Assembly: GCA_001820955.1 (NCBI GenBank) | Contig: MHRK01000008.1 | Coordinates: 1-38,605, forward strand | Direction of reading: 5' to 3' | Source: Candidatus Taylorbacteria bacterium RIFCSPHIGHO2_02_FULL_43_32b | GTDB lineage: Bacteria > Patescibacteriota > Minisyncoccia > Phycocordibacterales > 2-02-FULL-43-11 | Length of the DNA: 38,605 nt | Shown here: in pieces, positions 23,678-24,448 of the stretch | Layout: each line of letters begins with the position of its first letter | Position numbering within the stretch: position 1 is the first letter of the stretch | Notes under the pieces: generated by a model | Seen by the model: only the letters and a program-made list of their open reading frames with translations | What the model was told of the DNA's origin: nothing | The model's database searches: none | Translations under genes and position numbers: made by a program

Positions 23678-23806
23678 ATCCCGTACGAAACCGCTTCACT
23701 ACGAAAACATCTAATTACGACACATGAAAAATTCCAATTTTAAAAAAATAGCTAATAATAATTTTCGTACTTTCAAAGGCGAAGTGTTTCCTATTTCGTA
23801 CGGGAC
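23678..23806. repeat. inverted-repeat pair A (MITE-like unit): ATCCCGTACGAAAC ... TTTCGTACGGGAC
   Basis: TCCCGTACGAAA at 23679-23690 and its exact reverse complement at 23794-23805; sub-terminal TACGAAAA (23700-23707) / TTTTCGTA (23762-23769). Confidence 0.85.
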
Positions 23807-24170
23807 TATCGGCACTGACGTAGAAAAAGTTTCGCGTTTTAAACTCGACAAAAAAGCCGATAGCCGATTACTAAACAGAATTTTTTCTAAAAAAGAGCTG
23901 GCCTATTGTTTTTCAAAATCAAAACCCGAACAACACCTTTCTGGCCGATTTTCAGCCAAGGAGTCTATAATTAAGGCTCTGAGCCATATAAACGGAACAC
24001 CCTTGTACTGCGCCATGCCTGACATCGAAATAGTGAATAAAAATGGACTGCCTATGGCTAAATTGCTCGATAAAGAATTAAAGGGTTATACCGTCCAAGT
24101 CTCAATCGCCCACTCAAAAGACACAGTCTTCACAGTAGCCCTCGTAACATCCCGTACGAAACACACTTAG
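23724..24170 (+). CDS. acpS: holo-ACP synthase / 4'-phosphopantetheinyl transferase (AcpS family)
   Basis: GTIGTDVEKVSRF, RIFSKKELAYC, HLSGRFSAKESIIKAL, VSIAHSKDTVFTVAL. Confidence 0.9.
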   Translation: MKNSNFKKIANNNFRTFKGEVFPISYGTIGTDVEKVSRFKLDKKADSRLLNRIFSKKELAYCFSKSKPEQHLSGRFSAKESIIKALSHINGTPLYCAMPDIEIVNKNGLPMAKLLDKELKGYTVQVSIAHSKDTVFTVALVTSRTKHT

Positions 24171-24432
24171 TTATGTTTTATACATATATTTTAAAAAGTA
24201 ATAAGAATGATCAACTTTATACCAGATATACAACGGATTTACGGAAACGTTTTAAAGAACATAACGAGGGCTTGTCTACTTATACAAAATCAAGAGGTCC
24301 GTATGAACTTATATACTATGAAGCATGCTTAGATGAACTTGATGCAAGGTCGAGGGAATTATATTTAAAAACGGGAAGGGGGAAACGCTATATTAAATCT
24401 AGATTAAAACACTTCCTGTTTCGTACGGGAAC
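24149..24432. mobile_element. inverted-repeat pair B enclosing a GIY-YIG ORF (putative small mobile unit)
   Basis: 14-bp inverted repeat TCCCGTACGAAACA (24150-24163) / TGTTTCGTACGGGA (24417-24430) bracketing the GIY-YIG coding region. Confidence 0.55.
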
Positions 24433-24448
24433 AAAAAATCATGCCTAA
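24173..24448 (+). CDS. GIY-YIG nuclease family protein (UPF0213/YhbQ-like)
   Basis: FYTYILKSNKNDQLYTRYTTDLRKRFKEHNEGLSTYTKSRGPYELIYYEA. Confidence 0.9.
   Translation: MFYTYILKSNKNDQLYTRYTTDLRKRFKEHNEGLSTYTKSRGPYELIYYEACLDELDARSRELYLKTGRGKRYIKSRLKHFLFRTGTKNHA

Follow-up and report, generated by a model that had tools for sequence, protein, structure and literature searches.

Genomic context of the GIY-YIG gene

The window analysed here is a 38,605-nucleotide stretch of contig MHRK01000008.1 from Candidatus Taylorbacteria bacterium RIFCSPHIGHO2_02_FULL_43_32b. At positions 24173–24448 it contains a 91-aa ORF with a GIY-YIG domain (PF01541, E-value 4e-13, 49.9 bits against a curated cut-off of 22.6), flanked upstream by an acpS-type phosphopantetheinyl transferase gene (PF01648) and on the other side by an FkbH-like gene (PF21211). 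The sequence TCCCGTACGAAACA at 24150–24163 and its exact reverse complement at 24417–24430 form a 14-bp inverted repeat around this ORF, and both copies run into coding sequence: the acpS ORF ends in ...VTSRTKHT and the GIY-YIG ORF in ...LFRTGTKNHA. The first-pass annotation had described the repeat, the ORF with its two neighbours and the overlap with coding sequence, and all of these were confirmed, the genes by their Pfam domains.

The core 12-mer of the repeat, TTTCGTACGGGA, occurs exactly four times in the 1.01-Mb (1,011,203-bp) genome, always within 23679–24430, and the same 12-mer read backwards, used as a control, occurs zero times; the inverted repeat is therefore not a product of chance. 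The two further occurrences form a second inverted pair (23679–23690 and 23794–23805), absent from the first-pass annotation, which delimits a 127-bp unit enclosing the acpS start. Since this pair has the same 12-bp core, acpS sits between two units, designated A and B. The features, with the terminal inverted repeats (TIRs) of both units, are as follows.

23679–23805, + strand: unit A, 127 bp long, MITE-like and without an ORF, sharing the TIRs of unit B; it folds TIR to TIR (z −3.4)
23679–23690, + strand: left TIR of unit A
23794–23805, + strand: right TIR of unit A, followed directly by the conserved acpS N-terminus (T)IGTDVEKVSRF
23724–24170, + strand: acpS ORF, a host gene between two insertions, whose listed start falls within unit A and whose final codons belong to the left end of unit B
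24150–24430, + strand: unit B, a complete 281-bp GIY-YIG element from TIR to TIR, with the length class and architecture of 64 curated elements
24150–24163, + strand: left TIR of unit B, doubling as coding sequence for part of the acpS C-terminus
24173–24448, + strand: GIY-YIG nuclease ORF, 91 aa, UPF0213-like, with Gly18 of the YIG motif changed to Arg (PF01541, alignment, AlphaFold2 model)
24243–24255, + strand: internal arm GGAAACGTTTTAA of a second (subterminal) inverted repeat, a pattern seen in 56 of 64 relatives
24404–24416, + strand: right subterminal arm TTAAAACACTTCC, with two mismatches to the partner of 24243–24255 (sequence and family pattern)
24417–24430, + strand: right TIR of unit B, coding for ..LFRTG near the C-terminus of the GIY-YIG protein; in relatives the ending FLxRTG/FLSLTG is likewise encoded by the right TIR

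A family of elements in related genomes

Eighty GIY-YIG loci were gathered with an alignment of three such proteins; they lie in named genomes, nearly all of them Patescibacteria. Matching TIRs (inverted-repeat score of at least 10) lie close around 66 of the 80, compared with 2 of 157 shifted control regions, and the tie between the repeat and GIY-YIG genes, one of the checks set at first pass, is borne out. The core 12-mer itself was found in 21 of 197 genomes in an order-wide scan, often paired with start spacings of ~103–110 bp or 267–268 bp; the long spacing corresponds to units with a GIY-YIG ORF and the short one to ORF-less units.

A curated set of 64 elements ranges from 274 to 287 bp, with a mode of 277 bp. 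The TIRs are 11–16 bp long and of the type TCCCGTTAGAGAT or TCCCGTACGAAAT. Left and right 13-nt arms are identical in 51 of the 64 despite the presence of 31 different left arms; for arms taken from different loci, 7% of pairs would be expected to be identical. The sole gene is the GIY-YIG ORF (85–90 aa, ~86), which starts immediately downstream of the left TIR and stops within or at the right one. In 56 of the 64, as against 6 of 1280 shuffled controls, an arm of the GGAAACGCTTTAA type about 90 bp into the element pairs with TTAAAGCGTTTCC just inside the right TIR. Loci from an independent genome sample reproduced the pattern and added a 314–320-bp subfamily.

Several loci depart from this pattern. 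One GIY-YIG ORF (L228, G106:C1:396946) is bracketed by a 20-bp inverted repeat that is perfect but unrelated in sequence (CCCAGCACTCAATTTTATTT), so the TIR types are more diverse than those described above. Another GIY-YIG branch (L107 in G000:C45, L101–L104, L171, L172, L227, L242) is without these TIRs; its ORFs lie immediately in front of tRNA-like genes and often have GCGGGCGGG-type repeats next to them. At L168, a 23S rRNA gene, identified by its Rfam LSU match, contains a GIY-YIG ORF with long, different arms (ACCCGCCCAACTT..AAGTTGGGCGGGG) and so resembles the rRNA insertions reported in PMC11270868.

Target site and reconstruction of the start codon

An exact 4-bp target duplication flanks 31 of the 64 elements (permuted mean 11.3 matches; none of 5000 permutations reaches this number), and the excess persists among loci without TGAA (12 of 30, permuted mean 1.5, 0/5000). 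Among the 64 elements there is no comparable excess of duplications of 2, 3 or 6 bp, and matches of 5 bp are few in number. The target is A|TGAA, with the variants TGAG, TGAT, TGGA and TGTA; the duplicated 4-mers at insertions comprise TGAA and these four variants as well as CTGG and TTTA.

In elements ending in A, the host ATG is rebuilt as A|TG in 47 of 50 cases, and 45 of the rebuilt codons head ORFs of more than 50 aa. These ORFs are conserved genes, including TopA, MurG, ExoIII, transaldolase, RuvX, FolD, RNase H and SMC, and in most proteins tested the domain begins at residues 1–5. The stop codon of the GIY-YIG ORF consists of the first three flank bases in 47 of 64 elements, and the old host ATG is in frame with the GIY-YIG ORF in 20 of 64. 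No ATG is rebuilt by the elements that end in G (CCCCG...CGGGG), several of which lie at the 3' ends of genes.

Some elements occur in tandem (L029, L032, L076, L066, L087, L215), the right end plus TGAA or TAA abutting the next left TIR, as if each insertion regenerated the target.

ORF-less short units

Short units of 115–125 bp share ends, target and duplication with the GIY-YIG elements. Among 42 that were examined, an exact duplication is present in 33 and A|TG is rebuilt in 38; the units fold TIR to TIR with z-scores from −3.4 to −6.8. A 15-mer comprising right end and target, TCTCTAACGGGATGA, occurs 74 times in the genomes having it (23 of 148), and its reversed form gave no match in the 148 genomes. 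One genome, G034, accounts for 17 of the matches, mostly 120–121-bp units (~16 copies) that nearly all have exact duplications and lie at the starts of KsgA, TruB, bL9 and other genes, named from their N-terminal sequences.

A GIY-YIG partner with matching TIRs is present in the same genome in G000 (which contains the window), G115 and G188, and in G034 for the CGTACGAAA type. For the CGTTAGAGA type, no such partner was found in the G034, G075 and G025 assemblies: in G034, where many short units are of the TCCCGTTAGAGAT type, the sole GIY-YIG element of this class found carries a TCCCGTACGAAAT TIR, and in G075 and G025 there is no GIY-YIG element of this class. Loss of the autonomous partner is usual for MITEs, and the ORF-less units are best read, from their ends and target sites, as non-autonomous MITE-like derivatives. 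Translational coupling, with an ORF reading from the old ATG through the short unit, was also tested but is not put forward (6 of 28 units compared with 7.8% in shuffles, mostly one subfamily).

Empty sites and distribution

Direct comparison of related genomes shows insertion, with empty sites for both forms of the element. Within one genus, the transaldolase start carries a GIY-YIG element in G062 (L173) and is empty in G173 (L174); once the element and one copy of TGAA are taken out of L173, the flanks align with L174 at 81% through the junction, with no gap at the junction. At the TypA start, a 115-bp unit with TGGA duplicated is present in G188 (L115), the site is empty in three species (L114, L116, L119), and a further species (L118) has a different insert at the same ATG. 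The TypA query was composed by hand and not taken from a locus, and the matches were then read directly from the DNA. The first-pass annotation had suggested looking for empty sites at the acpS–fkbH junction; none was found there, no orthologous junction being present in the source family, which consists of two genomes only, the other without fkbH.

Members of the 314–320-bp subfamily (L162, L165, L170) have TIRs TCCCGTAGTAGA / TTCACTACAGGA and the same 4-bp duplication, and L170 again lies at a TypA start codon.

GIY-YIG copies are patchily distributed, with 1–5 per positive genome, in 38 of 148 genomes of the order and 62 of 287 of the phylum; a viral collection yielded one distant relative only. 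Elements were also seen in records not labelled as Patescibacteria (L099 and others among L025–L104), labelled delta proteobacterium NaphS2, Cloacimonadota, Omnitrophota and others, which could reflect either horizontal spread or mis-binned contigs.

The GIY-YIG protein

The protein is a UPF0213-like GIY-YIG domain. Its AlphaFold2 model has a pLDDT of 86.5, and the single-domain UPF0213/COG2827 protein BH0048 (PDB 1zg2) is its best match in the PDB by both sequence and fold, followed in fold by Slx1 and I-TevI. Unlike these UPF0213/COG2827 relatives, the protein is element-borne, its gene is bracketed by TIRs, and it has a C-terminal helix and a TIR-encoded tail; we know of no reported mobile context for the solved UPF0213 proteins. 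Among similar pairs, codon positions 1, 2 and 3 differ at rates of 0.25, 0.15 and 0.51, which shows purifying selection on the protein. The distance between TIRs follows that between proteins (Mantel test on the clean set, r = 0.50, 0/5000); with frameshifted copies included the correlation is weaker (r = 0.19, 116/5000).

State of the window copies

Although the TIRs of unit B match at 14 of 14 positions, an exact 4-bp duplication is absent at both window copies (TAGA/CTAT at unit A, AACA/ACAA at unit B). In the window protein Arg18 replaces the conserved Gly of the YIG motif, which is Gly in 64 of 65 aligned family sequences; Tyr16, Arg26 and Glu62 are retained. The catalytic signature (Y..Y-G, Arg, Glu) is broken in this copy and intact in relatives, and because of the replacement of Gly18 the protein is probably inactive. 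The border between unit A and acpS reads ...CGGGA|CTATCGGC where relatives would have A|TG. We infer that acpS has lost its own ATG at this border and that its present start is either within unit A or an alternative codon; its N-terminus (window 23679–23860) may be element-encoded. Both units look like old, immobile, decayed family members, the window copy being probably dead. Given the missing exact duplications and the G18R change in unit B, the window alone is no proof of mobility. A second GIY-YIG element with another TIR (ACCCCGTTAAGT / ACTTAACGGGGT) is present elsewhere in the same genome (L106, G000:C41:2013-2258).

Proposed mechanism and alternative explanations

We consider it likely that these loci represent a patescibacterial family of transposon-like DNA elements of very small size, ~277 bp long with a single GIY-YIG gene and accompanied by MITE-like derivatives, of which units A and B would be decayed members. 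The idea of a minimal mobile unit, raised at first pass, gains strong support at the level of the family from the TIRs, the 4-bp duplications, the dispersal to unrelated genes, the empty sites and the ORF-less derivatives. The GIY-YIG nuclease is probably the mobilising enzyme. With somewhat less assurance, we favour the view that the 86-residue protein acts alone as the transposase of a ~277-bp element that targets start codons, borrows and returns the ATG, and has spawned start-codon MITEs across the Patescibacteria. The TIRs, duplications, target rule, empty sites, derivatives, purifying selection and TIR–protein co-variation can be read directly from the sequences; the mechanism built on them is a proposal.

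In this scheme the element would insert with a 4-bp target duplication, preferring A|TGAA in a start codon. As the right TIR ends in A, A+TG(A) would restore the host ATG, and the same TGA would usually serve as the GIY-YIG stop codon, overlapping the host start. For about one third of the elements, the former host ATG to the left shares the reading frame of the GIY-YIG ORF and could start it. The protein would recognise and bind the folded or paired ends and make cuts with a 4-nt stagger at the TIR/flank border and in the target; gap filling by host repair would then complete the insertion. Known GIY-YIG enzymes hydrolyse DNA, usually with staggers of 1–2 nt and not 4, and we know of no GIY-YIG enzyme that joins strands.

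The weakest point of this scheme is that some genomes rich in short units lack a GIY-YIG element with the same TIRs, which makes a trans-acting enzyme other than GIY-YIG possible. The elements would then be mobile, with a transposase encoded elsewhere and the GIY-YIG protein as a passenger or accessory. We regard this as rather unlikely, though the most serious of the alternatives: short units do outnumber GIY-YIG elements and occur in genomes without a TIR-matched copy, and the GIY-YIG nuclease that accompanies the tyrosine recombinases of Tsy transposons is accessory and non-essential (PMC10293859). Against it, the GIY-YIG ORF is the only gene, defines every 274–287-bp unit and spans it from TIR to TIR; it is under purifying selection and diverges in step with the TIRs; and exact pairs of these TIRs were never seen to enclose a longer element carrying another gene. 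As for known transposase domains, GIY-YIG was the only domain found in the ORF of the window element, and the relatives, being of the same length, have no space for a second gene.

Mobilisation of dispersed palindromes by a nuclease acting on single-stranded hairpins, as in RAYT/REP systems, has less in its favour, and we think it improbable. It would accord with the TIR-to-TIR folding of the short units (z −3.4 to −6.8), with the co-varying second inverted repeat just inside the right TIR, and with a protein fold close to Slx1, a cutter of branched DNA. However, an HUH tyrosine transposase is missing, the TIRs enclose the nuclease gene, and insertion produces 4-bp duplications. Membership of RAYT/REP was rejected, no HUH/Y1 transposase domain being found in the four window ORFs tested.

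Homing, in which the enzyme would cut one allelic site and the element would be copied by recombination with flanking homology, is very improbable and largely refuted. GIY-YIG is a homing-endonuclease fold and sites are reused at the TypA, ExoIII and MurG starts, yet dozens of unrelated genes carry insertions, many of which have a 4-bp duplication of their own, and homing needs no TIRs and makes no duplications, both of which are present here. An allelic, site-specific homing endonuclease gene was rejected because the target genes are unrelated. The comparison with RAYT/REP or homing systems made in the first-pass annotation therefore survives only as a loose analogy, given the many unrelated sites, the duplications, the nuclease inside the TIRs and the missing HUH/tyrosine transposase.

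Least probable of all is an immobile regulatory or translational-coupling module, or a transcription terminator. The overlap of the GIY-YIG stop with the host start and the strong folding of the units would fit such a role, but for the family it is refuted by the empty sites, by the target duplications and by the many similar copies dispersed through a single genome. A regulatory side effect of the elements is possible.

Relation to known systems

The preferred reading, a GIY-YIG transposon-like family, resembles IS/MITE pairs of the DDE type in its TIRs, short duplication, autonomous-looking and ORF-less copies, and empty sites. It differs in having no DDE transposase, a total length of ~277 bp, a single GIY-YIG gene, and a start codon that is targeted and rebuilt. 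RAYT/REP and IS200/IS605 are likewise tiny nuclease-linked palindromic elements with subterminal foldable sequence, but they use HUH tyrosine chemistry without target duplication, in contrast to the GIY-YIG domain and 4-bp duplication found here. Known GIY-YIG nucleases act in homing, restriction or repair, or assist recombinases and reverse transcriptases; in Penelope-like retroelements, a GIY-YIG domain accompanies reverse transcriptase in transposition. Unlike in these retroelements and in Tsy transposons, no other gene fits in the present element. To our knowledge, GIY-YIG has not been known as the only enzyme of a transposon with TIRs and target duplication.

Searches of the literature by topic and by TIR sequence found no description of such elements, a weak negative in that preprints and most subscription journals were outside their scope. 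The nearest report concerns rRNA genes of CPR bacteria, which contain non-intron GIY-YIG insertions at poorly conserved sites as well as uncharacterised insertions of less than 200 bp (PMC11270868). These share with our elements the GIY-YIG gene, the short ORF-less insertions and the host bacteria; they are set apart by their description, which reports no inverted repeats, duplications or start-codon targeting.

If the proposed mechanism is correct, it would represent a new transposition chemistry in an extremely small package, and the elements would be among the smallest autonomous transposons possible. Inserting at an ATG, duplicating TGAA and ending in A may amount to an unusual strategy of harmlessness, by which the start of the host gene is kept. 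Since about one fifth to one quarter of the sampled phylum and order genomes carry GIY-YIG copies, the family matters for gene-start annotation and for genome plasticity in the streamlined Patescibacteria. It may also explain the uncharacterised GIY-YIG and short insertions in the rRNA genes of these bacteria.
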